Positions 13,069 to 61,241 of a stretch of DNA of 64,000 bases are shown piece after piece. Numbering within the stretch: position 1 is the stretch's first letter; each line of letters begins with the position of its first letter. Made by a program: the position numbers and the translations under genes. The notes beneath the pieces are model-generated. The model made no database searches. It was given only the letters and a program-made list of their open reading frames with translations, and was not told where the DNA came from. This stretch comes from Bacteroidia bacterium (lineage in GTDB: Bacteria; Bacteroidota; Bacteroidia; AKYH767-A; OLB10), in NCBI GenBank assembly GCA_016788165.1, contig JAEUTH010000009.1:1-64000 (forward strand). The letters are read 5' to 3'.

Positions 13069-16000
13069 CTACCTGAATAGTGAAAAGTGTCCTTTCATTG
13101 TTTTTGCATAGCCATTAAAAACATAATGCAGCAGGTAGTAGTAAGTGCCTTCGGATAGCAATTGACCATGGTTATCACGCCCATCCCAAATAACTTTTTT
13201 ACCATCGGCATTAAACACGGTATTACCCCATCGGTTAAATACCTGCAATTGCCAAAAACTTACAGCATCGTTTGCTAATTGCCAGGTATCGTTATAGCCA
13301 TCGTTGTTAGGTGTAAGTACATTAGGTAGTAACAAATTACAATCTGCAACCTTTACCATAACCGAATCGGTAATTGCGCATACACCATTAGTTAGCTGTA
13401 CAAAATAATAACCTGCCATTGCTTTCGTAACCGAATCAACTTGCACCGTAATTTGCTGACTAATCAACTGATTGTTATGAAACCAATTTACAAACTGATA
13501 AAATTGTGCAGTAGCATCAAGCAATAAAGTATCGCCTATACACAATGTAGTTGCACTTAGATTACTTACAACAGGCAATGTATCTACCATTAACTTGATG
13601 TTACTGCCATTACTCATACAGCCATTATTTGCAGTTACTATATAGGTGCCGCTTTGATTTAATGTTGCCGCAGGTAACTGTAATAAGTAGCCTGAATGGT
13701 TTAATGCATTTGGCCCTGTCCAGTTATATGTATTGGTGGATGGATTAATAACCTGCATAGTAACAGCCTGTCCCTGACAAATTTCAATATCCGGACTTAC
13801 CAACGGTGATTGGGGTGGCGCAGTTAACTGTATGGCATAGTAAGCCGTATCACTAAAACAATTGCCATTGCCTATTTGTAAATTATATGTGCCATTAATT
13901 GCAGGATATATTGTAAAGGTTGCCTGGTTTCCGCTTACTCCTTGCGGTCCGCTCCAATTATATACCGATGCCTGACTATTGGTATTTAAAATTAGCGTAT
14001 CATAAGTACAAACAATGACAGGGCCTGTAATTACCGGTGTGGTTGGTTTACTGTTGATGCTTACCAAAACACTATCGGGCAAACTATTACAAATGCCGGT
14101 TGCTATACAATAATACCAGCCACTATGTATGGTTGATGCTTGCAAAATAGAAACGGTACTGTTAGTTGAAAGGAAATTTTGTGGGCCAAACCATTGTAAT
14201 GAATTGCCATTTGCAGTAAGTATTATGGTATCGCCAACACATGATGCGGCATTGGTGCTAATTACCGGTATTGGTGCATTGCTGTTTATTAAAACCGTTA
14301 CCTGTGTGCTTTGCGAACCACAACCACCATCAAAAAGTTGCAAGTAATAGTTGCCACTATTTGCGGTATCGGCCGGTATTATTTGTGGATTTTGTAAGGT
14401 GCTGCTAAAATTATTGGGGCCCGTCCATTGGTATTGAAAACCGTTTGCAGCAGGTGTAAATAACTGTAACGTATCACCGGTACATTGTGCATTGTTAACA
14501 GTAGCTAACGGTGTAGGCGGTTGCGAAGTTAGCGATATGGTTATGGTATCTGACTGGGCTGTGCAGCCATTAACATCCGTAAGCAGCACCGAATAGGCAC
14601 CGGCACTATCAACATAAATGCTATCTGATGTCGATAAATTGTGTTGCCATAAATAGGTATAGCCCGGGGGGGCTATCAGCAAAACCGAATCGCCAATACA
14701 AATGGTAGTTGCTGCACTTTGTATTTGTGTATTAAATGTAGGTTCGGTTATAGTGATATCAAGTATGGATGTTATGCCACATGATAAAACGGCACATTGA
14801 TATGTACCGGGTGCTGTTATATAAACCGTTGTATCGCTGCCGCTTAGCGGTGGTTGCCAACTCCAAGCACCACCCGCTGTTATTAATTGCACTACAACCG
14901 TATTGCCATCACATATATAATTACTGCTTGCAATTAAAGTGGGCGAAGTATAATTATTAATATCAGCCGAGTTAGATAAAAGCTGACAGCCATCAGTATC
15001 AACTACAGAAAAAAAGTAAGTGCCCGGCAGCGATGCATAAGTAATTTGGCTTGTGTCTGCTAACAGACCATTAGGGCCATACCAGGAGTAAGTGCCCGGT
15101 ATATTGCCGCCTAACTGTACCGAATCGTTGGGGCATATAATACCATCGTTTGGCGATGTAAAAATTTGTGGCGAAGTTTTAGTTGTAATCAACACACCTG
15201 CCGAGCTGTAGGTAACACAACTATCGGTTGATAGCTGAGCACTGCTAACAGTATAGGTCCCTATGCTGGTAATCTGAATACTGCTGTCGGATAAATTGCC
15301 AATTATATTAGGGCCTGCCCATGTGTAATTTATGGCACCAGATGCTGTAAGTGTTATGGTATCGCCAACAGGGCAAATAGGCCGCATGCCGGCAATAACT
15401 ATATTTTGAGCAGGGAGCACCTCTAATTTTTCGAAATAAATTTTTACTGAAACTGGGCCTACCGTATCGCCACCACATTGTGCATTAAAACCGTAACATG
15501 AAATAATGTACCATCCATTTGTATCGGGTATAAATGACATGGTAGCCATACTGTAACACGGGAAACCGCCCACGTTATAAGACTGCATAGGTGTAATACT
15601 CCAAAACACCGAATCTTTGTAACAGATGCTGGTAACCGAATCAATAAATGCAACATGCACATTGTTACTGCAATTGCTAACCGTATCATTTACTGCGTTT
15701 ATAACATTGATGCGATGTATGCTGTTGGTGTTTTGAATTACCTGCACTTCAATATAATTGGTTGCAGGGCATTGTGTATTTGTACCAACAGTAAAACTGC
15801 AAAGGGCGCTTTGGTTTATGGTTATAGTGTCATCATAATATACAATGCCATTTACACTCCAAAAATAAGCACTGCCCGGAGCTAAATTACTTGCCCAGAT
15901 AATTACCGAATCGGGCGAACAAACAATTACTTTTTGCGTAGCAGTTGCCTGATTGTTGACGCCTTTACTATCGCTTATAAGCGGGTATGCCGGTGGTGTA

Positions 16001-17772
16001 ACTACCGTTACTGTCATATCGGCCATGCTGCTAAAACAGCCATCTTCAGTTGTAACAGTTACCGTATAGGTGCCACCACCGGTAACTAAAATATTACTTA
16101 ATGCACCGTTACTCCATTGATAGGTATAAGCAGGCCCAATGTTTCCATCGGTTCGTGCCGAAGCGCTTAAATATGCCGAATTATTAGCACAAATGGTTGA
16201 CGTATCGTTACAAGCGGCTTGCGATATTTGTTCAATAATGCATGCCGGTATTACATCACGCTGGCAGTTGCCACTTTGTCGTATGTAATAGTCGTAAGGC
16301 TGGCGTTGGGTTACAATGCACTGTGCATACATAATATCTCTGTTGCCACTTGCAATGGCACCATTGGTAACTTGGCAGTAGCTGCTGTAGTTTAAATCGT
16401 TGCAATACACGGCTGCCGTGCCTGCAGTAAAGCAACCGGTTGTATTTTGAAAAGGGGCCGAAAATTTTTTATCGAAACTTCCTGTAAAATAAATTTTATT
16501 GTTTGTATCTAAAGCAAGGCCTGCAGCAAAATCATTTTGTGGGCCGCCCATGCAGCGTGCCCAATCTAATGTACCATCTGCTTTATTTTTACATACAAAA
16601 ATATCACTGTAACCTACACTGTTAAAAATACCTTGTCCGTATATATCTGCAAACTCATTAAGGCGACAATGGTATTCGCCTAATATAATTACATCATTTG
16701 TGTTGGTGCACTTTACATTAGTTGCACGCAATAAACCAGTGCTACTGTGCGATTTTATCCATTGTATAGTGCCATTATTATCAAGTTGCATTACAAAAAT
16801 TCTGTTGTTGTAAGTGCCGCCAATATTTTGTTGTGGCGTTGATAAGGTTGTAAGGGTGCCGCTAAAATTACCGGTAAATGCAATACGGTTTAATGCATCA
16901 ACGGCCAATGCTACCGGAGTTATTGATGATGAAATACAAGGCAAAAACCATTGTTCGCTACCATTAGCATCTAATTTAAACAGGCAAGCAATATTGCTCA
17001 GGATGTTGGGATGTACCACATCAATGGTAAGCGTATCGCTATACTGGCCGCAAACAAAAATGTTACCGTTGGCATCTGTAACAATATCGGTGGCTTTATC
17101 ATCTCCGGTGCCAAATGCTTGTTTAGTCCATAAAAAATTGCCGCTACTGTCTAACTTCGAAACAAACATGTCGTTAGTACTTACACTGGCATTGATGGTA
17201 CTTTGAAAAATGGCAATCCCAAAGTTGGCAGTGCCTACAAAGCTACCGGCCATACATATATTACCAAATGTATCGGCAACTACATCAGCTACAAAATCGT
17301 TGCCAGGCCCACCAACACTTTTTAGCCACAACACAGTGCCATTGCCGTCATACTGTGCTATAAAAACATCATTAAGCCCTGCCGATGTTACCGTATAAGT
17401 TCCAATGGTTAAGTTACTTTCAAAAGTACCAACTACTACTATGTTGTTGCCGTTACTGCAAACACCCAAACATTTATCAATACTGGTTCCACTAATTTTT
17501 TGCGCCCATAAAACATCGCCCTGCGAATTGGCGCAACTTATAAAGCCATCGCTTAAACCTAATGGCGAAAGTGTAAAATTGCCAAATGAAGCTAGCCCCG
17601 AAAAATAGCCTACCGTATAATTATTGCCGTTGCTGTGTGCGCAAATGTCTAAACCTTCATCAATTACAGCACTACCGGCACTTCTTAAAAAATATTGTGC
17701 TTGCGAATTGGAGCATAATAAGAGCAAACAGATAAACTGAAAAAAAAATAAACGGGAATTTTGAACAAGCAT
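13069..17772 (-). CDS. Giant secreted SBBP/Ig-like repeat protein with type B T9SS tail
   Basis: A 1567-residue surface or secreted protein. The signal peptide (LFFFQFICLLLLCSNSQAQ) ends near residue 26. Residues 30-450 are SBBP-type propeller repeats (GTAN/GNIFVCG, 'D.NG...W'). From about 530 to 1470 come Ig-like/PKD-like modules of about 75 residues, each with a Cys early and a 'G.Y.V' strand late (for instance GGTYTVTVTTEDGC). The C-terminus from about residue 1478 is the 'gliding motility-associated' type B sorting domain: LPNVLTPNNDGYNDTW, VFNRWGNTVF, WDGRDNHGQLLSEGTYYY. Such tails direct export by T9SS and attachment or release at the surface. The modules are diverged, unlike those of the protein at 55428. 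Its function is unknown; adhesion is a reasonable inference. Confidence 0.88.
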   Translation of the reverse strand: MLVQNSRLFFFQFICLLLLCSNSQAQYFLRSAGSAVIDEGLDICAHSNGNNYTVGYFSGLASFGNFTLSPLGLSDGFISCANSQGDVLWAQKISGTSIDKCLGVCSNGNNIVVVGTFESNLTIGTYTVTSAGLNDVFIAQYDGNGTVLWLKSVGGPGNDFVADVVADTFGNICMAGSFVGTANFGIAIFQSTINASVSTNDMFVSKLDSSGNFLWTKQAFGTGDDKATDIVTDANGNIFVCGQYSDTLTIDVVHPNILSNIACLFKLDANGSEQWFLPCISSSITPVALAVDALNRIAFTGNFSGTLTTLSTPQQNIGGTYNNRIFVMQLDNNGTIQWIKSHSSTGLLRATNVKCTNTNDVIILGEYHCRLNEFADIYGQGIFNSVGYSDIFVCKNKADGTLDWARCMGGPQNDFAAGLALDTNNKIYFTGSFDKKFSAPFQNTTGCFTAGTAAVYCNDLNYSSYCQVTNGAIASGNRDIMYAQCIVTQRQPYDYYIRQSGNCQRDVIPACIIEQISQAACNDTSTICANNSAYLSASARTDGNIGPAYTYQWSNGALSNILVTGGGTYTVTVTTEDGCFSSMADMTVTVVTPPAYPLISDSKGVNNQATATQKVIVCSPDSVIIWASNLAPGSAYFWSVNGIVYYDDTITINQSALCSFTVGTNTQCPATNYIEVQVIQNTNSIHRINVINAVNDTVSNCSNNVHVAFIDSVTSICYKDSVFWSITPMQSYNVGGFPCYSMATMSFIPDTNGWYIISCYGFNAQCGGDTVGPVSVKIYFEKLEVLPAQNIVIAGMRPICPVGDTITLTASGAINYTWAGPNIIGNLSDSSIQITSIGTYTVSSAQLSTDSCVTYSSAGVLITTKTSPQIFTSPNDGIICPNDSVQLGGNIPGTYSWYGPNGLLADTSQITYASLPGTYFFSVVDTDGCQLLSNSADINNYTSPTLIASSNYICDGNTVVVQLITAGGAWSWQPPLSGSDTTVYITAPGTYQCAVLSCGITSILDITITEPTFNTQIQSAATTICIGDSVLLIAPPGYTYLWQHNLSTSDSIYVDSAGAYSVLLTDVNGCTAQSDTITISLTSQPPTPLATVNNAQCTGDTLQLFTPAANGFQYQWTGPNNFSSTLQNPQIIPADTANSGNYYLQLFDGGCGSQSTQVTVLINSNAPIPVISTNAASCVGDTIILTANGNSLQWFGPQNFLSTNSTVSILQASTIHSGWYYCIATGICNSLPDSVLVSINSKPTTPVITGPVIVCTYDTLILNTNSQASVYNWSGPQGVSGNQATFTIYPAINGTYNLQIGNGNCFSDTAYYAIQLTAPPQSPLVSPDIEICQGQAVTMQVINPSTNTYNWTGPNALNHSGYLLQLPAATLNQSGTYIVTANNGCMSNGSNIKLMVDTLPVVSNLSATTLCIGDTLLLDATAQFYQFVNWFHNNQLISQQITVQVDSVTKAMAGYYFVQLTNGVCAITDSVMVKVADCNLLLPNVLTPNNDGYNDTWQLANDAVSFWQLQVFNRWGNTVFNADGKKVIWDGRDNHGQLLSEGTYYYLLHYVFNGYAKTMKGHFSLFR

Positions 17773-44354: not shown

Positions 44355-47300
44355 CTACCTTTTAATAAAGTTAATAGCACTATAACCATTATTCCAAACA
44401 ATCAATTGATAAACACCTGAGGCAAATGGTGTTTTTATGGTTAAGTAGTTGTTGCTGGTTAAGTTAGTTTCAGTAACAAGTGCTCTACCCCATACATCAA
44501 TTATTTTATACCAAGCATGCTGTGTCAATGGTTTATTAAATATTACATTAATAAAATCGCTGGCTGGGTTGGGGTACAAAACAGATATAGACGAATTTAT
44601 GTTGTTAACTCCGGCACAACCGGCAACCGGCAAATAATTGCTCATGTGGCTACAACCGGCATTATCAAAAACCCGCACACTATACAAACCCGGTTGCAAG
44701 GCTGCATACGAAATATTTGTAGCAGCATTAATAGGCACGTCAAAATTGTACCATTGATATGAAAGTGCACTGCCTGTATTTGCCAATAACATTACGGTAT
44801 CGCCTGCCGGGCAAAGCACACTATCAGAAACATAATAAGCTTCCGATTCGGGCACTTTAGTTACCGTAACCGTTTGACTGGTATCAAAACACAAATTTAA
44901 ATCGGTAATAAACGCTTTATAATTCCCAGTTTTATTGACAGTAAGTGTGTAGTAGTTGCTATTTGCAATAGGCACGTTATTTAAAAACCATTGATAGGTA
45001 TAATCCGGATTTTGATCGGCATAAAGTATAACGCTATCCTGCGTACATAGCATTAACGAACCACTTGTTGTTAATTGGTTATTTATAATATGTTCGGCAA
45101 AATAAAGTGGTTGGGTACCGGTACTACATCCATTTGGCTGGGACACAAATACCTGATAAGTGCCGGTATTTGTTGCTAAATAATGTGTGTCGGTTGCGCC
45201 TATTATCGGTTGCAAGTTTTTATACCATTGATACGTGTATGTTGGGTCATAACCTGTATGCAATGCCACACTATCATCAACACAGCTAAATAAAGTACCG
45301 GTTATATTTTGTTGTGGGTTGGGTGCTGCCTTTACTTTGAGCACATCTAAGTAATTTGCAGTATCGTTTCCGAAAGGGTTGTAAGCAATCAGTTTAACAT
45401 CCTGCACACCAAACATGGTTTTATAAGTTACAACCGGATTTGGTTGGTTTGAGGTTGGCGGTGTCCCATTCTGAAATATCCATTTTAAACTATCAGCTTT
45501 GCCAATGATTACGCTGGTGTATTGAACCGAATCAAATAAGCAGATGGTTGTTTTATCCATAGCAAATTCGGCTATTGGCGAGTTTCCTTGATGAATGAAA
45601 ACAGTGTGTTTGTTCGATAGCCCTGCATCGTCAGTTACGGTTAAGGTTATTTCATAGAAGTAAGTTTCTAAACTGTCTTCGGGCGAGGTTATGAAGTAAC
45701 TTACATGGTCGGTATCAATTGGATTTGGATGCTCATGGTAATTGTGGTGCAATGAAGTGTACCATTCATAATGCAATTGATTTTGATTATGCTCGGCATC
45801 GGTAACATTTGCAGTAAGGTTAAAAGTTTCGGCCACTAATGTAGAGTACCAACTACCATCAATGGGGCTTGTAATAGCCACATTGGGCGGTGTGTTGTTT
45901 AATGACACCAAGCTGGTTGCACTACCCGAAAGGTTGCCTGTGTCAGTTACGGTAAGTGTTACATCATATTTAATAGGGTTTCCGTTAGGCGCATTGTATG
46001 TATGACTTACTTGCGCGCCTGTAGCTGTAGTGCCATCACCAAAAGTCCAAGCATAAGTTAGTGCAGCGCCTTCGGGGTCGGTTGATGTACTGCCGTTAAA
46101 GTTTACGGTAAGCGTGCCCGGGCCAAAAAGTTTGTCTTGTTGGATACGTGCTACAGGTGCAACATTTACGCCCAGGGTGTATCTGATGCGGTGTATTTCG
46201 TAAGGATATTCAATATAATAAATTGCCTGGTCGAAACGGTTGTAAGTTAATGCCATGCAATCGCCTAAACTTGTAGCAAAAGTATCAACAAACAAGGGGT
46301 TATTGGCACTATCTAACTTTATATTACAGATATAACCGGTATCGTATTCGGCAACAAAAAGCTGACCTTTGTAAAAGGCCGGAAACTTATCGCCCATATA
46401 AAACTCAACACCCGAAATACATTGGCTTTTAAGCTCAACGCCACCGGTAGGCGAACCGGGTGCACCAACATTGGCTAATGTAGGATTGTACCCATTCCAG
46501 GTTGGCACATAAGTGGTTGAGTCGGCATGAAAAAATGCCATAGATGGCCGCTTACGTATGTAACGCGGAACACTGTTAGGTGTTTGCATACTTATATTAC
46601 ATGGGTTAGGCCAATTTGCATTTGGGTCGAGTGTTGGTTCTAACAATAGGTCTTTGAAATAGAAATAAGGTTGGGTGCAACCTCCGGTGCCAAATAATGG
46701 ATTGGGTGCATAATAGTTGGGTACCCATTTATTAATGAAACCATTATGTGGCGCCATTCCTTCATAACTGGGCCAACCAAAGTTTTGTGCTGCGCTATCG
46801 CAAATAAATAAACTCTCCCATTTATAAAAACCTACATCGCCAATGTAAAATGTACCTGGAAGGCCGGCTGTAATATCAGTTGATGATGTGCCGGGTTTAA
46901 TACAAAATTGATAAGGTTGTCGAAGCCCCAAACACCAAACTTTGCTGATGGGTGCATTGGGTTGTGCTGCATCGTAATAAGGGTTTGAACTTATGCCCAA
47001 TCCGGTCATTGGGTCAATACGTAACAACTTGCCGTTTAAAGATTGAATTAACTGTGACCTGAAGCCACCAATATTGGTTTGCAGTATCAAAATGCTATCT
47101 AACAAACACTGGGCATAGTAGGTTTGTGCATTGCTGCCTGTATCTACCGAACCACCATGTGCATTATCGCCTGTAGAAATTACTAACGACCCGTCTAACA
47201 TCATTTCTATATGGCCACCATCATGAAAGGTATAGGTTACAGGTATGCCTGTTTGTTTAGTTTGGCCAATTAAAACGAAGCGGCTGTTAGGTATTAGCGT

Positions 47301-47792
47301 AGTAAAATTGGTAGTTGGGTCGGCCTGAAAACGGGTAACCCGGTTAATGGTAGCGCTAAAAAAGTTATTTACATTGGCATTATAATTTGGTGTACCAAAC
47401 TCTAAAAGGTGATGCCTGTCAACAGTGTACATTACATAAAAATAGCCGTTGGTTAAAAAATTTTTATCCAAGGCTAAGCCCATTAAACCATGCGAGCTCC
47501 ATTGACCTACTTCTTCTTTAATATTTAAAAGTGGGGCATTTATTTTTACGCCATTGGTATCAACAATCCAAATTTCGCCTGCACCCTCAACTACAAACAT
47601 GCGACCTAATGAGTCGAATACCAATTGGCGCAAATCGTCCCATCCATCAGATACTTTATCATCTGTAAAGCCTGGTAAAACATGCGGATTACTTGTTGAG
47701 CCTCCTTGTCCATATCCCAATGTGCAAGCAAATAACAACTTGAGACACAAAAGGCCAAACCATTTTTTTAGTAATTCACTTTGCTTAATCAT
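44355..47792 (-). CDS. Secreted sugar-dehydrogenase-like protein with PKD and T9SS tail
   Basis: A 1145-residue exported protein. After the signal peptide (LLFACTLGYGQ) residues 35-545 form a glucose/sorbosone dehydrogenase-like propeller: DDLRQLVFDSLGRMFVVEG, HGLMGLALDKNF, the loop HDGGHIEMMLDGSLVISTGD, GKLLRIDP and CLGLRQPYQF. Members usually carry PQQ, but I cannot confirm its ligands. A PKD domain follows at about 555-640 (YAWTFGDGTTATGAQVSHTY), then Ig-like modules with paired Cys, and a type A sorting domain at the end (VLYPNPASDFINVIFNKPL ... GVYQLIVWNNG). It should be T9SS-exported and may oxidise sugars or bind polysaccharide at the surface. It stands alone. Confidence 0.85.
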   Translation of the reverse strand: MIKQSELLKKWFGLLCLKLLFACTLGYGQGGSTSNPHVLPGFTDDKVSDGWDDLRQLVFDSLGRMFVVEGAGEIWIVDTNGVKINAPLLNIKEEVGQWSSHGLMGLALDKNFLTNGYFYVMYTVDRHHLLEFGTPNYNANVNNFFSATINRVTRFQADPTTNFTTLIPNSRFVLIGQTKQTGIPVTYTFHDGGHIEMMLDGSLVISTGDNAHGGSVDTGSNAQTYYAQCLLDSILILQTNIGGFRSQLIQSLNGKLLRIDPMTGLGISSNPYYDAAQPNAPISKVWCLGLRQPYQFCIKPGTSSTDITAGLPGTFYIGDVGFYKWESLFICDSAAQNFGWPSYEGMAPHNGFINKWVPNYYAPNPLFGTGGCTQPYFYFKDLLLEPTLDPNANWPNPCNISMQTPNSVPRYIRKRPSMAFFHADSTTYVPTWNGYNPTLANVGAPGSPTGGVELKSQCISGVEFYMGDKFPAFYKGQLFVAEYDTGYICNIKLDSANNPLFVDTFATSLGDCMALTYNRFDQAIYYIEYPYEIHRIRYTLGVNVAPVARIQQDKLFGPGTLTVNFNGSTSTDPEGAALTYAWTFGDGTTATGAQVSHTYNAPNGNPIKYDVTLTVTDTGNLSGSATSLVSLNNTPPNVAITSPIDGSWYSTLVAETFNLTANVTDAEHNQNQLHYEWYTSLHHNYHEHPNPIDTDHVSYFITSPEDSLETYFYEITLTVTDDAGLSNKHTVFIHQGNSPIAEFAMDKTTICLFDSVQYTSVIIGKADSLKWIFQNGTPPTSNQPNPVVTYKTMFGVQDVKLIAYNPFGNDTANYLDVLKVKAAPNPQQNITGTLFSCVDDSVALHTGYDPTYTYQWYKNLQPIIGATDTHYLATNTGTYQVFVSQPNGCSTGTQPLYFAEHIINNQLTTSGSLMLCTQDSVILYADQNPDYTYQWFLNNVPIANSNYYTLTVNKTGNYKAFITDLNLCFDTSQTVTVTKVPESEAYYVSDSVLCPAGDTVMLLANTGSALSYQWYNFDVPINAATNISYAALQPGLYSVRVFDNAGCSHMSNYLPVAGCAGVNNINSSISVLYPNPASDFINVIFNKPLTQHAWYKIIDVWGRALVTETNLTSNNYLTIKTPFASGVYQLIVWNNGYSAINFIKR

Positions 47793-54560: not shown

Positions 54561-55274
54561 ATGGCAACAATTTTACATATCGAAACAGCTACCCCTATAT
54601 GTAGTGTAGTATTAGCTTCTAATAAAATTATTTTATCCGAAGCCCTGACTTTAGAACCCAGGTCTCATGGGTCGCAGCTTCAGGCAATGGTGCAACAAGT
54701 GTTGGATACAGCAGGGCTCACATTTCATAACTTAGATGCAATTGCAATAAGCAAAGGGCCGGGTTCATACACGGGCCTTCGTATAGGAGTATCGGCTGCC
54801 AAGGGCTATTGCTATGCATTAAACATCCCCTTAATTGCAATAAATACATTGCAAGCTTATGCCATACACTGCATAAATACTTTACGGAATGAACAAAGAA
54901 TGCCCGAAGCTGACAATAACCTCCCCATGCTTTTTGTGCCCATGATTGATGCGCGTAGAATGGAGGTTTATACAGCTATATTTAATGTGGATGGCGTTGC
55001 AATTTTGCCTACACAGGCAATGATATTAACCACAACCTCATTTGCTGATTTATTAACAAACAATAATTTGGTTTTTTTTGGTGATGGTGCAACTAAATGG
55101 CAAACACTGGCACATACTTTTGCGAATGCTTTTTTTGTTGAAACACCGGTTTCGGCAGTAGGTATGGTTCAATTGGCTATGGATAAATTAAAGGCAAAAG
55201 ACGTTGAAAACACAGCTTATTTTGAGCCTTTTTACTTGAAAGAGTTTTATACACCTGCATCAAAAAAAGCATAA
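54561..55274 (+). CDS. tsaB: TsaB, tRNA threonylcarbamoyladenosine biosynthesis
   Basis: Non-catalytic partner of TsaD in making t6A on tRNAs that read ANN codons. N-terminal ATPase-like fold: ILHIETATPICSVVLA and the conserved KGPGSYTGLRIGVSAAKG near residue 70. The 237 residues are a normal size. It is a single gene with its own promoter. Confidence 0.94.
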   Translation: MATILHIETATPICSVVLASNKIILSEALTLEPRSHGSQLQAMVQQVLDTAGLTFHNLDAIAISKGPGSYTGLRIGVSAAKGYCYALNIPLIAINTLQAYAIHCINTLRNEQRMPEADNNLPMLFVPMIDARRMEVYTAIFNVDGVAILPTQAMILTTTSFADLLTNNNLVFFGDGATKWQTLAHTFANAFFVETPVSAVGMVQLAMDKLKAKDVENTAYFEPFYLKEFYTPASKKA

Positions 55275-55427: not shown

Positions 55428-58400
55428 ATGAAAACAAAAAACACGAAATGGTTCCTTTTTAATCTGCTCACACTTTTTACTTTTCAATATAGTAATGCGC
55501 AGCTTAGTTTGGTTAACACAGGGCCAACTACAACGCCAACAGCATTGGTTAATGCAATTTTAGGAGGCGGGGTTCAGGCAACAAATATAACTTACACGGG
55601 TGCTGCCTTATCGCGTGGCCGTTTTACCTCCAATGCCACAAATATCGGTATGCTAGATGGTATTGTACTTAGTTCGGGCGAACCCAATATGCCGGCAGCA
55701 CCGGCATCGTTATTTAAGTCATCGGCTATGAACAATAACTCTGATCCACAATTAGCCGCTATTGTTTCACCGCAACTGGTTAGAGATGCCTCGGTATTGG
55801 AGTTTGATTTTTCAGTGGCTTCTGATACCGTAAAGTTTGAATATGTTTTTGGCTCCGAAGAGTATAATGATTATGTAAATACTTCTTTTAATGATGTCTT
55901 TGGCTTCTTTATAAATGGCCCGGGTTTACCACCTAATAAAAACTTGGCCATAGTACCCGGCACAACTAATACAGCAGTTTCTATTAATAACATAAATAAC
56001 GGTGGCCCTTTTCCAGGTTTGTCATCAGGGCCCTGCACTAATTGTGCTTACTTTGTAGATAATGTAAACGGCTCACAAGTTTTTTTAGATGCATTCACAA
56101 CGGTTCTTCAAGCCAAAACAGCCGTTCAGCCTTGCGAATTATACCACATTAAATTGGCAATTGGCGATGTGTCTGATCAGGCATTTGATAGTGATGTTTT
56201 TATTAAAGGAAGCAGCTTTGCCAGTGTGGGCTTAATTTCGAGTTTTGCTAATGGTGTACCGGTAGGTATAAACGATACTATTTATGGCTGCCCGGGAGGA
56301 ACCATAACGCTAAACTTAAATCCTGCATCAAATTATTTGTGGAGTACAGGCGAAACAACACAAAGCATTGTTGTAAATGTACCTCCAGTTGGCGCTCCGG
56401 CCCAATCTTACTCGGCTTATGTTACTAATCCACCCATGTACACCTGCTTTGCCTTTACCAACACCAGTTGGGTTGTAGCCGCCCCACCGGTTGCAAATAT
56501 TTCGGGTAATAATTCGTTTTGTACAGGTAGTAACACTACACTTACCGCCAATACAGGGTCATCATATTTATGGAGTACTGGAGCTACCACACAAAGTATA
56601 ACGGTTAGTGTTGCAGGCACATTTACAGTTACTGTAAGTAATGGGCCTGGTTGTAGTGCAACATCAACACCTTTTGTTGTAACAGCAGGTAGTGCGGTAG
56701 CTAATATAACAGGGCCAACAGCTATTTGTAGCGGAGCTGCAGCAAATTTAAATGCTAACTCAGGCATCAGTTATTTGTGGAGTAATGGTCAAACCACACA
56801 AAATACGCTTGTAAATGCAACCGGAACCTATACAGTAACAGTAACACAAAATGGTGGTTGTACAGCAAGTGCTTCGCAAACATTAAATGTTTCGTCCAAT
56901 CCGGTACCTGCCATAACAGGCCTTAATACTATTTGTGCCGGAGGAGTTACTTCCTTTAATGCAGGTGCAGGTTTTAGTTCCTATTTATGGTCTTCGGGTC
57001 AAAGTACCCAAACAATCACGCCATTATCAGCAGGTAATTACACAGTTACAGTTAGTAATGCAAGTGGTTGTACCGGTACAGCATCGCAAAGTTTCACTAT
57101 TAATGCATTACCTATTCCAAGCATAAGTGGCGTAACAGCTGTTTGTCAGGGTAGTGCAGCAACATTAAACGCAGCAGCGGGATATACAAATTATGTTTGG
57201 AGCAATGGTGCATCTACAGCTACAATAAATCCAACAATTGCTGCAATTTATACAGTAACTGTAACTAATGGCAATGGTTGCACCGCATCGGTTTCTCAAA
57301 CGGTAACCGTTAATACCAATCCAACACCTGCAATTACAGGTGTGTTGGCTATTTGCAACGGAGCAAATACAACGCTCAATGGAGGCGCAGGTTATAGTAG
57401 TTACAGTTGGAGCAATGGAAACACTTTACAAAGCAATATGGTTGCAGTAGCAGGTGTTTATACAGTAACCGTTTCCAATGCAGCAGGCTGTACAGGTACT
57501 AATAGTGTAACACTTACTGTAAATGCTAACCCAACTCCAACCGTTACAGGAATTACTGCCATTTGTGCCGGTAACAATACTACATTTAGTGCCGGTGCCG
57601 GTTTTGCTAATTACCAGTGGAGCAATGGCGTTACTACGCAAAATAATATTATAAACGCATCAAACACCTATACTGTAACTGTAACTGATGCCAATGGTTG
57701 TACCGGCACAGCAAGTAATACTTTAATTGTTAACGCCTTGCCCGTACCAAATATAACAGGTACAAGCACTGTATGTCAAGGTATAGCAGCAACACTAAAT
57801 GCAAATGCAGGTTTTTCTGATTACCTGTGGAGCAATGGAACAACAACAGCTACAATTAATACAACCATTGCAGGTAGTTACACGGTAACGGTTACGGATA
57901 TCAATAGTTGTACAGCTACTGTATCGCAAAATGTAATTGTAAATGCAAACCCTGCGCCCGTTATTACCGGTATTATGGCAATTTGTAATGGTACCAACAC
58001 TACATTAAATGGCGGGGCCGGTTTTAGTAGTTATGTATGGAGTAATGGCAGCACTACACAAAGCAATTTGCTTACAACAGCAGGTACTTATACGGTTACA
58101 GTTACAAACATTAATGGATGCACCGGTACAAATAGTGCCACATTGGTAGTTAATGCCAACCCTACACCGGTTGTTACCGGCCTCAATGCCATTTGTGCAG
58201 GGGCTAATACTTCGTTTGATGCAGGTACAGGCTACAGCAGCTATTTGTGGAGTAATGGAGTAACTACTCAAAACAACCTGATAAACACAGCAAATACTTA
58301 TACAGTTACAGTAACCAATATTAATGGTTGTACAGGTAGCGCAAACAATACACTTGTAGTTAACGCATTGCCTACACCAAACATAAGCGGTGTAACGGCC

Positions 58401-61241
58401 GTATGTCAGGGTTTTGCAGCTACATTAAATGCCAATGCCGGCTATACCAATTATGTATGGAGTAATGGAGCGTTAACGGCAACTATAAATCCAACCGTAT
58501 CAAATACCTATACGGTAACAGTTACCGATGGTAATGGTTGTACCAGTTCAGTTGCCCAGGCAGTTGTAATTAACGCACTACCCACTCCATCAATTACTGG
58601 GATTGCCGCAGTATGTCAGGGTGCCAATGCAAACTTAAATGCAGGTGCCGGATATAGTTTATATCAATGGAGCGATGGAAGCAGCACACAAGTAATAAAC
58701 CCCGGAATTGCAGCCAACTATACAGTAACCGTTACTGATGCAAATGGATGTACAGGATCTGCCAATATCAATGTGGTTGTAAGTAATAACCCAACTCCTT
58801 CAATAACCGGAGTAAATGTTATTTGCCAAAACGACCCCACTACATTTGATGCCGGTGCCGGTTACAGCCAATACCAATGGAGTAATGGTAACGTAACTCA
58901 GAATATTAATCCAACCACAGCCGGTGCCTATACAGTAACCGTAACAGATGGTAACGGATGCACAGCAACTGCATCATATAGTTTAACCGTTAATGCATTG
59001 CCTACACCAAACATAAGTGGTGTAACTGCGGTATGCCAGGGCTTTGCAGCAACGTTAAATACAAATGCCGGCTATAGTAATTATGTTTGGAGCAATGGTG
59101 CAACAACTGCAACTATAAATCCAACCGTAGCAAACACCTATACGGTAACAGTTACCGATGGTAATGGTTGTACCAATTCCGTTGCGCAGGCAGTTGTAAT
59201 AAATGCCTTGCCTACACCAACAATTACCGGTCAGGCAGTAGTATGCCAAGGCAACAATGCTAATATTGATGCCGGTGCAGGTTATGCAAACTACCAATGG
59301 AGTAATGGCAGTAGCACACAAATTATAAATCCAAACGTTGCAGCTATCTATACAGTAACCGTTACAGATGCAAATGGCTGTACCGGTTCTACTAATATTA
59401 ATGTGGTTGTAAATCAAAACCCAACACCAGCAATAACCGGAGTAAATGTTATTTGTCAAAACGACCCCACTACCTTTGATGCCGGTGCCGGTTACAGCCA
59501 ATACCAATGGAGTAATGGTAACGTAACTCAAAACATTAATCCAACCACAGCCGGTGCCTATACAGTAACAGTAACAGATGGTAACGGATGCACAGCAACT
59601 GCATCATATAGTTTAACTGTTAATGCATTGCCTACACCAAACATAAGTGGTGTAACAGCCGTATGCCAGGGCTTTGCAGCTACGTTAAATACCAATGCAG
59701 GTTATACCAATTATATATGGAGTAATGGAGCAACAACTGCAAGTATTAATCCTACCGTAGCAAACACTTATACGGTAACAGTTACCGATGGTAATGGATG
59801 CACCAATTCAGTGGCGCAGGTAGTAGTAATAAATGCCTTGCCCACACCGGCTATAACAGGCATTACTTCCATTTGTGATGGCACCACGAGCAGTTTTGAT
59901 GCAGGCAGTGGTTATAGCAATTACCAATGGAGTGGCTCAAATACTACACAAATACTTACAACAGGTGTAGCCGGTGCCTATACAGTAACAGTAACAGATA
60001 ATAATGGCTGCTCAGCATCTACCAGTATTGTATTAACAGTTAATCAGAACCCTACACCAAAAATTGTTGGTAACGACACCATTTGTTTTGGTTTTGTATC
60101 GTTAATTGATGCCGGAAATGGTTTTGTAAATTATGTTTGGAGTACAGGCTTAAATGCACAGATTATTAATATAAATACTGCCGGTAATTATACCGTAACA
60201 GTTACCGATGCCAATGGATGTACAGGTGAAGATGTATTTAAATTAGAAGTATTAACTGCCGAAGCAAGTATATCACCTAATGGCCCTACAAGTTTTTGTG
60301 ATGGCGAACAGGTAACACTACAAGCAAGTATGGGGTTAAGTTATTTATGGAGTACCGGTGCAACCACACGAGATATTGTTGTTAAAACTTCGGGTAACTA
60401 CACAGTGCAAATTGTAAATCTGAATGGCTGCACAGCAGTTTCAACAATTCAAAATGTAAGTGTACATCCGTATCCGGTTGTGAGATTTGTAAACGATACC
60501 AGCACGCTTTGTGGCGCATTGCGAGTTAAGTTTAATAATATTTCAATATTTGAACCGGGCTCGAGTTTTGCATGGGATTTTGGCGATGGTTTTTCTTCAA
60601 GTATTGCATCACCAACGCATGACTATAAAAATGTGGGTACTTATATAATCAGATTGGTTATTGAATCGCCATACGGTTGTGTTTCAGAAAGTAGCGATAC
60701 GATTACTGTTGACTTTGCACCCGAAGCCATTCCATTGTTTACAATGAGTACCAACCTGGTGCCACTGTTCGAAGCCAATGTTGATTTTGTTGATCAATCA
60801 ATAAATGCCTATACCTGGCTTTGGGGTTTTGGTGATGGCGATACCTCAACTGAAAAAAATCCCTCACATGTTTTCGACAAACCAGGTACTTACAATGTAA
60901 AGTTGAATGTTACCAATTTAGCGGGTTGCCGTAAAGTTTATGAATTGCCTGTAACTGTTGCACCATTTTGGATACCCAATGCATTTTCGCCAAATGATGA
61001 TAACAGAAATGATTTGTTTTTCAACTCAAACTATGTAATGGATGTTATCAGTTTCGAGATGATTATCAGAAACCGATGGGGACAAGTGGTATATGAAACC
61101 AAAGATTTTAACCAACCTTGGGATGGCCGTGGTAATGATGAAAGCATAGCTCCTGAAGGTACTTATGTATATGATATTAATATCAGAGCTAAAACCGGAT
61201 TAGACTACAACTTTAAAGGTACCGTAAACCTTATCAGGTAA
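55428..61241 (+). CDS. 1937-residue choice-of-anchor L / repeat protein with type B T9SS tail
   Basis: A very large secreted protein. Signal peptide to about residue 25 (LLTLFTFQYSNAQ), then a choice-of-anchor L domain (about 35-280; EFDFSVASDTVKFEYVFGSE). From residue 355 to about 1684 there are 19 tandem Ig-like modules of about 70 residues (core pattern ITG...IC.G...AGYS.YQWSNG..TQ...GTYTVTVTD.NGCT). Two PKD domains follow (FAWDFGDGFSSS; WLWGFGDGDTST), then a type B sorting domain (PNAFSPNDDNRNDLFFNSN, RNRWGQVVYET, WDGRGNDESIAPEGTYVYD). Each module keeps two Cys. Repeats of this kind usually serve adhesion. The reading frame is intact throughout despite the extensive near-identical repeats. 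Confidence 0.9.
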   Translation: MKTKNTKWFLFNLLTLFTFQYSNAQLSLVNTGPTTTPTALVNAILGGGVQATNITYTGAALSRGRFTSNATNIGMLDGIVLSSGEPNMPAAPASLFKSSAMNNNSDPQLAAIVSPQLVRDASVLEFDFSVASDTVKFEYVFGSEEYNDYVNTSFNDVFGFFINGPGLPPNKNLAIVPGTTNTAVSINNINNGGPFPGLSSGPCTNCAYFVDNVNGSQVFLDAFTTVLQAKTAVQPCELYHIKLAIGDVSDQAFDSDVFIKGSSFASVGLISSFANGVPVGINDTIYGCPGGTITLNLNPASNYLWSTGETTQSIVVNVPPVGAPAQSYSAYVTNPPMYTCFAFTNTSWVVAAPPVANISGNNSFCTGSNTTLTANTGSSYLWSTGATTQSITVSVAGTFTVTVSNGPGCSATSTPFVVTAGSAVANITGPTAICSGAAANLNANSGISYLWSNGQTTQNTLVNATGTYTVTVTQNGGCTASASQTLNVSSNPVPAITGLNTICAGGVTSFNAGAGFSSYLWSSGQSTQTITPLSAGNYTVTVSNASGCTGTASQSFTINALPIPSISGVTAVCQGSAATLNAAAGYTNYVWSNGASTATINPTIAAIYTVTVTNGNGCTASVSQTVTVNTNPTPAITGVLAICNGANTTLNGGAGYSSYSWSNGNTLQSNMVAVAGVYTVTVSNAAGCTGTNSVTLTVNANPTPTVTGITAICAGNNTTFSAGAGFANYQWSNGVTTQNNIINASNTYTVTVTDANGCTGTASNTLIVNALPVPNITGTSTVCQGIAATLNANAGFSDYLWSNGTTTATINTTIAGSYTVTVTDINSCTATVSQNVIVNANPAPVITGIMAICNGTNTTLNGGAGFSSYVWSNGSTTQSNLLTTAGTYTVTVTNINGCTGTNSATLVVNANPTPVVTGLNAICAGANTSFDAGTGYSSYLWSNGVTTQNNLINTANTYTVTVTNINGCTGSANNTLVVNALPTPNISGVTAVCQGFAATLNANAGYTNYVWSNGALTATINPTVSNTYTVTVTDGNGCTSSVAQAVVINALPTPSITGIAAVCQGANANLNAGAGYSLYQWSDGSSTQVINPGIAANYTVTVTDANGCTGSANINVVVSNNPTPSITGVNVICQNDPTTFDAGAGYSQYQWSNGNVTQNINPTTAGAYTVTVTDGNGCTATASYSLTVNALPTPNISGVTAVCQGFAATLNTNAGYSNYVWSNGATTATINPTVANTYTVTVTDGNGCTNSVAQAVVINALPTPTITGQAVVCQGNNANIDAGAGYANYQWSNGSSTQIINPNVAAIYTVTVTDANGCTGSTNINVVVNQNPTPAITGVNVICQNDPTTFDAGAGYSQYQWSNGNVTQNINPTTAGAYTVTVTDGNGCTATASYSLTVNALPTPNISGVTAVCQGFAATLNTNAGYTNYIWSNGATTASINPTVANTYTVTVTDGNGCTNSVAQVVVINALPTPAITGITSICDGTTSSFDAGSGYSNYQWSGSNTTQILTTGVAGAYTVTVTDNNGCSASTSIVLTVNQNPTPKIVGNDTICFGFVSLIDAGNGFVNYVWSTGLNAQIININTAGNYTVTVTDANGCTGEDVFKLEVLTAEASISPNGPTSFCDGEQVTLQASMGLSYLWSTGATTRDIVVKTSGNYTVQIVNLNGCTAVSTIQNVSVHPYPVVRFVNDTSTLCGALRVKFNNISIFEPGSSFAWDFGDGFSSSIASPTHDYKNVGTYIIRLVIESPYGCVSESSDTITVDFAPEAIPLFTMSTNLVPLFEANVDFVDQSINAYTWLWGFGDGDTSTEKNPSHVFDKPGTYNVKLNVTNLAGCRKVYELPVTVAPFWIPNAFSPNDDNRNDLFFNSNYVMDVISFEMIIRNRWGQVVYETKDFNQPWDGRGNDESIAPEGTYVYDINIRAKTGLDYNFKGTVNLIR
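57117..60266 (+). repeat. Five tandem copies of a 630-bp (3 x 70 residue) super-unit
   Basis: Every third module starts with the signature VCQGxAATLN. Taking the CCAA of its first codons as marker, the copies begin at exactly 57117, 57747, 58377, 59007 and 59637: four spacings of 630 bp with no net insertion or deletion. Within a super-unit the three modules differ, but equal positions in successive units are close, and 58801-59220 and 59431-59850 are nearly identical. The array runs from residue 564 to about 1613. Confidence 0.9.

Follow-up and report, generated by a model that had tools for sequence, protein, structure and literature searches.

A three-module unit in the Ig-like stalk of a predicted T9SS surface protein and stepwise array lengths among its relatives

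The window analysed here, a stretch of 64,000 nucleotides from the Bacteroidia bacterium contig JAEUTH010000009.1, contains a gene for a large protein in which modules of 70 residues recur on two levels. This raises the question by what unit such an array gains and loses length, and whether it has done so recently. The initial annotation proposed an exact 630-bp super-repeat with three modules per unit, produced by recent unequal exchange and varying between strains in steps of 210 residues. The parts of the gene are listed below; modules are counted from 0, so that the A modules carry the numbers 3, 6, 9, 12 and 15.

54561-55274 (+), TsaB/TsaD-like neighbour upstream of the putative adhesin gene (PF00814), adjoining it also in genomes G002, G008 and G005
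55428-61241 (+), gene for the predicted 1937-aa modular surface protein, a single open frame with choice_anch_L and T9SS type B sorting domain
55428-55502 (+), probable signal peptide, residues 1-25 ending in SNAQ, a hydrophobic N-terminus read from the translation
55542-56219 (+), choice-of-anchor L domain, residues 39-264 (NF038133, E 6.5e-69, 231.7 bits, cut-off 27)
56259-56480 (+), degenerate first Ig-like module with Trp at residue 305, a weak match to the module HMM in all orthologues
56481-57110 (+), N-terminal modules 0, 1 and 2 (module HMM)
57111-57740 (+), trimer unit 1: A (57111), B (57321), C (57531); 69% DNA identity with unit 2
57741-58370 (+), trimer unit 2: A (57741), B (57951), C (58161), from the module comparison
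58371-59000 (+), trimer unit 3: A (58371), B' (58581), C' (58791); 86% DNA identity with unit 4
59001-59630 (+), trimer unit 4: A (59001), B' (59211), C' (59421), from the module comparison
59631-59840 (+), fifth A module, opening an incomplete fifth unit; 90% DNA identity with A of unit 4
59841-60470 (+), divergent C-terminal modules 16, 17 and 18, outside the trimer repeat and devoid of a lag-3 excess
58801-59180 (+), most recently copied patch in the array, sharing 93.4% identity with 59431-59810 and an unbroken match of at most 56 bp
59431-59810 (+), partner of that patch in the same comparison
60516-60935 (+), two PKD domains (PF18911/PF00801)
60972-61238 (+), CHU_C / T9SS type B sorting domain, residues 1849-1937 (PF13585, E 3.8e-15; TIGR04131, 37.9 bits, cut-off 35)

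From the N- to the C-terminus, the protein consists of the choice-of-anchor L domain recognized by NF038133, the degenerate module and 19 Ig-like ones, then a pair of PKD domains and a C-terminal domain that was identified as a type B sorting domain by TIGR04131, above its cut-off, and by PF13585. The number of modules agrees with the 19 annotated at first, and 16 of them are spaced by exactly 70 aa. SprA (TIGR04189) is encoded at full length in the window's genome and was matched in 23 of the 24 genomes of its family. Judged from its domains, the 1937-aa protein is predicted to be exported by the T9SS to the cell surface. None of the single 70-aa modules matched a Pfam family above its cut-off. 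For the trimer, He_PIG barely passed (25.6 bits, cut-off 24), and Ig_7 and PKD-like models stayed below their cut-offs. The minus strand of the window also encodes a GSDH-PKD protein with a type A tail (44355-47792), likewise of the T9SS surface type, and a 1567-aa T9SS-type surface protein with a type B tail that shows weak module matches too (13069-17772). A 158-aa antisense ORF within the array (59055-59531, minus strand) is probably a by-product of the base composition of the repeat.

Similarity between the modules of the array peaked at a distance of three. At lag 3 the protein identity was 0.67, compared with 0.52 for lags 1, 2 and 4, which bears out the earlier observation that modules in the same position of the unit resemble each other more than neighbours do; same-phase modules reach 99% aa identity, against about 52% for neighbours. 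DNA identity at lag 3 was 0.70, compared with 0.594 +/- 0.018 when the order of the modules was shuffled (p ~1e-5), and the self-identity of the DNA over a wider region was 0.55 at lag 630 versus 0.49 at 210 and 420. A similarity peak at a lag of more than one domain, the mark of a super-repeat, is therefore present in this array. A simple 210-bp tandem repeat was rejected because lag 630 is clearly higher than lag 210; Tandem Repeats Finder, whose limit is 500 bp, gave a period of 210 only. The dissimilarity of neighbours was considered as a special feature as well and discarded: identity at lag 1 does not fall below that at lags 2 and 4, and since the dissimilarity follows from the trimer it is no separate evidence.

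The five A modules lie at exactly 630 bp from each other, as annotated. What is exact is the spacing and not the sequence, since the whole trimer units 1-4 are 62-86% identical in DNA. The five tandem trimers that had been described reduce to four. In the fifth unit (59637-60266) only the A module is trimer-like, being 85-89% identical in DNA to A of units 3 and 4, whereas the second and third modules are just 50-61% identical. The segments 58801-59220 and 59431-59850, annotated as nearly identical, share 92.6% identity over 420 bp. In the module tree the expected period-3 clustering was complete for the A modules only, which form one group (85/79). The B modules fall into two sub-kinds, {4,7} from units 1-2 and {10,13} from units 3-4, and the C modules divide likewise, with {5,8} from the former and {11,14} from the latter; in the tree, the B and C modules of units 1-2 cluster together (82/89).

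The age of the copies was read from synonymous divergence. For pairs of same-phase modules dS was 0.18 (modules 11/14), 0.46 (12/15), 0.60 (9/12) and 1.1 (10/13), and for the remaining pairs 1.3 or more, in places beyond estimation. The patch with dS 0.18 spans about 230-380 bp and is the sole young one in the window's array. Among the A modules dS ranged from 0.46 to 0.65, and modules 9, 12 and 15 showed a dN of 0.03-0.05 with dN/dS below 0.1. The array in the window is an old repeat with a younger, overwritten patch, maintained under purifying selection, and not a burst of fresh copies. Of the recent unequal exchange proposed at first, this one patch is what stands; the divergence of the A modules, and of the others that are near or beyond saturation, speaks against it.

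The window's genome lies within a family of uncultured Bacteroidota MAGs, all of them drafts (named relatives include OLB10 and UBA6661), and a relative of the N-terminal domain was present in 24 of the 24 family genomes examined. Complete arrays were found in 15 proteins from 8 genera, the window's own (G000) included. They comprise 19 modules in G000, G002 and G008 (distance between the first and last modules in units of 210: 6.00, 6.08 and 6.06), 16 in G019, G011, G022 and G004 (5.06, 5.05, 4.98 and 4.98), 13 in G007, G015, G010, G018 and G005 (4.03, 4.00, 4.00, 4.00 and 4.15), 10 in G012 and G017 (2.98 and 2.98) and 7 in G001 (2.02). In all 15 intact arrays of the 8 genera the module number is thus 1 mod 3. 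A test on length only agreed with the domain calls (R(210)=0.96; p=0.00026 for nine clade representatives, under a null of free single-module steps). Mapped on a phylogeny built from the regions outside the repeat, the counts require six or more changes in length. When modules were aligned without constraint, the differences appeared as internal blocks of 3 or 3+3: modules 8-13 of G022 are missing from G012, modules 4-6 of G002 are missing from G011, and G001 lacks two blocks of three that lie apart. Six changes are a modest number, and the 15 counts cannot be treated as independent; with this in mind, the trimer as the unit of length change between species is strongly supported. That part of the earlier proposal holds, the word 'recent' being weak for this array, and what has been gained and lost is the trimer, a unit that is old and under selection.

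Some further features of these relatives were noted. The OEP-HlyD-TsaB neighbourhood is kept in G002, G008 and G005, in the last of which the DUF255 gene downstream is found as well; since this neighbourhood is common to only some of the orthologues, a few of the proteins compared may be paralogues. Directly upstream of the orthologue in G007 (contig C75) lies an irregular array protein of 2108 aa (L041 / L078), probably a tandem paralogue. Short paralogues of about 500-526 aa (L066 on G002:C5, L063 and L064) carry the same N-terminal domain almost without modules, and this form was the only one found in genus g10. Public MAGs titled Chitinophaga pinensis contain the orthologue (L084 and L090) on contigs equal to those of G012 and G021; these titles look wrong. 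In G003, G013, G016, G020, G021 and G023 the gene is cut by a contig end in or near the array (L042, L043, L062, L065, L067 and L068), a place where short-read MAGs tend to break.

Such breaks in six relatives, and the draft state of the window's own genome (46 contigs), are what could be expected if the array had been collapsed or mis-joined from short reads. An assembly artefact is nevertheless very improbable: the window's units are separated by DNA differences of 4-40%, the reading frame is unbroken, and other species, assembled independently, have the same architecture with the same steps of 210 aa. Collapse of near-identical trimers could alter the length in threes for G019 and G011, but it cannot explain arrays whose units are less than 85% identical.

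The two arrays just mentioned, both from genus g4, behave differently from those of another genus. Within each of G019 and G011 the trimers are 93-97% identical in DNA, with a within-array trimer dS of 0.08-0.35 (0.08-0.32 over modules 2-8), whereas between the two species they are 27-42% different, with a dS of about 1 or more. The trimers of g4 have been homogenized within each species, that is, they show concerted evolution of the trimer. In genus g5 the 16-module arrays of the sisters G022 and G004 are orthologous module by module, with a dS of about 0.4-1.0 at every position and about 0.6 overall, and there has been no exchange since their split. Arrays can therefore be dynamic or frozen, and the unchanged g5 arrays give no ground for assuming frequent variation from strain to strain. 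These data also bear on the explanation by recent unequal crossing-over only, according to which the trimers are young and the length is free between strains in 210-residue steps. The homogenized g4 trimers and the 93% identical patch in the window fit it, but A modules at dS 0.46-0.65 with most other same-phase pairs near or beyond saturation, the stasis of the g5 arrays at dS ~0.6, and phases that are common to several genera do not, and we consider it improbable.

The last of these points comes from comparisons across genera. The mod-3 periodicity was significant (p<0.05) in 10 of the 15 orthologues, the window's own included. Among the 15 proteins tested it was not detectable in G007, G018, G012, G017 and G001, the counts of which thus only inherit the rule. 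The association between phase and residue between genera exceeded that of random phase assignments, none of 600 reaching the observed value. On leave-one-genus-out scoring, 82 of 137 modules were given their own phase (46 expected), and the expected phase ranked first in 6 of 8 genera; genus g8 gave a tie and the window's genus was ambiguous, 5 of its 14 modules being put in the correct phase when tested alone against the other genera. An ICQ-G/N signature is common to phase-2 modules in several genera. These sequence comparisons suggest that the phase of the modules is largely shared between most genera. In G002, G008, G011 and G019 an 87-aa variant module occurs once, towards the C-terminal end of the array; in G005 (L048) it is repeated three modules apart, which implies that the trimer holding the variant was copied.

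A model of six modules was a row of Ig-like beta-sandwiches (pLDDT 93, pTM 0.59). By sequence, the best PDB relatives of the modules were stalk segments of GhpA (profile E 3.7e-244), and the model matched the GhpA stalk with a Foldseek TM of 0.73 and, on fold comparison, with a Z of 16 and an rmsd of about 5 A across 416-420 residues, the runner-up family scoring Z 9.9 at 24 A. The modules of the window protein are, by these measures, homologous to that stalk. This was not so for the head. No match to GhpA was obtained with the N-terminal profile A1 at E up to 1, and the head model (pLDDT 73) resembled MAM/CBM27/Eph jelly rolls only weakly (Z ~7), too faintly for a function to be assigned to it.

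The likeness to GhpA has a bearing on a different account of the steps of three, in which three modules would form one azimuthal or axial repeat of the rod or of a multimeric fibre, so that the register of the head and of the A faces survives only when the length changes by whole trimers; of all the sizes that recombination would supply, selection would remove the others. Purifying selection does hold the phase-specific sequence, 1 mod 3 is obeyed even where similarity within the array has decayed, and the six-module model superposes from end to end on segments of the GhpA stalk whose solved entries each contain seven chains. The same rule is obtained without such selection by register-locked recombination, however, and with a pTM of 0.59 the geometry between modules is only predicted. 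Moreover, other arrays in the window's genome have periods of 1 and 2, so that no general rule of three applies. We regard this account as unlikely, and equally so its strict form, a structural quantum of three modules (perhaps a GhpA-like multimeric fibre) for which selection permits only 3k+1 modules. If true, it would mean that adhesin length is quantized by geometry, in the way in which the titin super-repeat of 7 or 11 domains fits the thick filament (PMC3859903). A genome-wide rule of three was considered separately and rejected, the other giant arrays having single periods of 69 or 76 aa or dimers of 150 aa. Many giant Ig-array proteins are encoded on contigs C11, C46, C6 and C31 of G000 (L157, L071, L074 and L072), with open frames to 6,700 aa, composed of 76- or 69-aa single modules or of 150-aa dimers (74+76).

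Taken as a whole, the data are in our view probably best explained by a T9SS-exported rod that contains an old trimer unit, recombines in a locked register and is under selection for the sequence of each phase. The protein would stand on the outer surface as a rod with a choice-of-anchor L head. Its 19 Ig-like modules would form the stalk, followed by the PKD pair and the sorting tail; copies of an old A-B-C unit make up most of the stalk, which perhaps sets the reach of an adhesive head. Because the closest homology within the gene lies three modules away, recombination or slippage would join copies in a three-module register, so that whole 210-residue units are added, removed or overwritten and both ends and the phase are left intact. 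Between such events selection would hold the protein sequence of each phase, and synonymous sites would drift apart. The observations underneath are the architecture, the lag-3 periodicity, the number of 1 mod 3 in the 15 relatives, the homogenization in one genus and the low dN/dS. As to the step itself, register-locked homologous recombination between trimers is most likely, with the length altered by 210 residues and a unit overwritten now and then.

How does this family relate to known systems? GhpA of Aureispira sp. CCB-QB1 (PDB 9flp, 9flw and others) is reported to be a heptameric T9SS substrate that catches prey (PMC11205867). It resembles the present protein in its stalk modules, by sequence and by fold, in a weak match at the C-terminal sorting domain and in T9SS export. 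It differs in size (5898 aa versus 1937 aa here) and in its head, to which the head here is unrelated by profile. Besides, VipA of the T6SS (PF05591) was absent from the 24 family genomes in a search whose control matched only E. coli, so that a divergent T6SS may escape it. Since the head is unrelated and VipA was not found, a grappling-hook role was considered and is not claimed; it is a lead. The link does suggest that the stalk module is in use beyond the one solved grappling hook. The SprB-type gliding adhesins of Flavobacterium are likewise large T9SS-exported adhesins of Bacteroidota (PMC11205867); a search of the trimer against Pfam models, read up to E 10, gave no SprB-repeat match in a library that may lack such a model.

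The closest parallel is with the Periscope Proteins, bacterial surface rods of variable length such as Sgo_0707 SHIRT, Rib and SasG (PMC8201768). These share with the window protein a rod of repeated folded domains, a surface-sorting tail and a head, the last being putative in the window protein; copy number sets their length, and its change is attributed to intragenic recombination between similar DNA. A rod of highly similar tandem folded domains is found here as well (up to 99% aa identity for same-phase modules; Ig-like fold, pLDDT 93). In Periscope rods adjacent SHIRT domains are 82-100% identical and 3-14 copies are found between strains, whereas in the window protein neighbours are about 52% identical with near-identical copies three apart, and in its family the number shifts by threes between species. 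Similarity of neighbouring domains is thought to promote misfolding (PMC8201768, PMC1553488). The present design shows how an array could keep its recombination partners three modules apart with neighbours about half identical. An autocorrelation peak at a lag of more than one domain is also seen in the super-repeats of titin and nebulin (PMC3859903), and joint duplication of several domains in eukaryotic proteins (Bjorklund et al. 2006, PMC1553488). These cases are mainly eukaryotic, whereas here a three-domain unit belongs to a bacterial adhesin with a quantized length across species. Multi-domain duplication units, mainly in eukaryotes, and variable-length bacterial rods are thus already known. 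A paper on a trimer-stepped bacterial adhesin was not found in the open literature searched, which covered few subscription papers, and within that literature such an adhesin, followed through a family with its phase kept between genera, is new. We conclude that the window family is a variant of the variable-length, Periscope-like adhesin rods that steps by trimers. The usual description of such rods is of repeats gained or lost one at a time; this family indicates that they can evolve by fixed triple steps instead of module by module.
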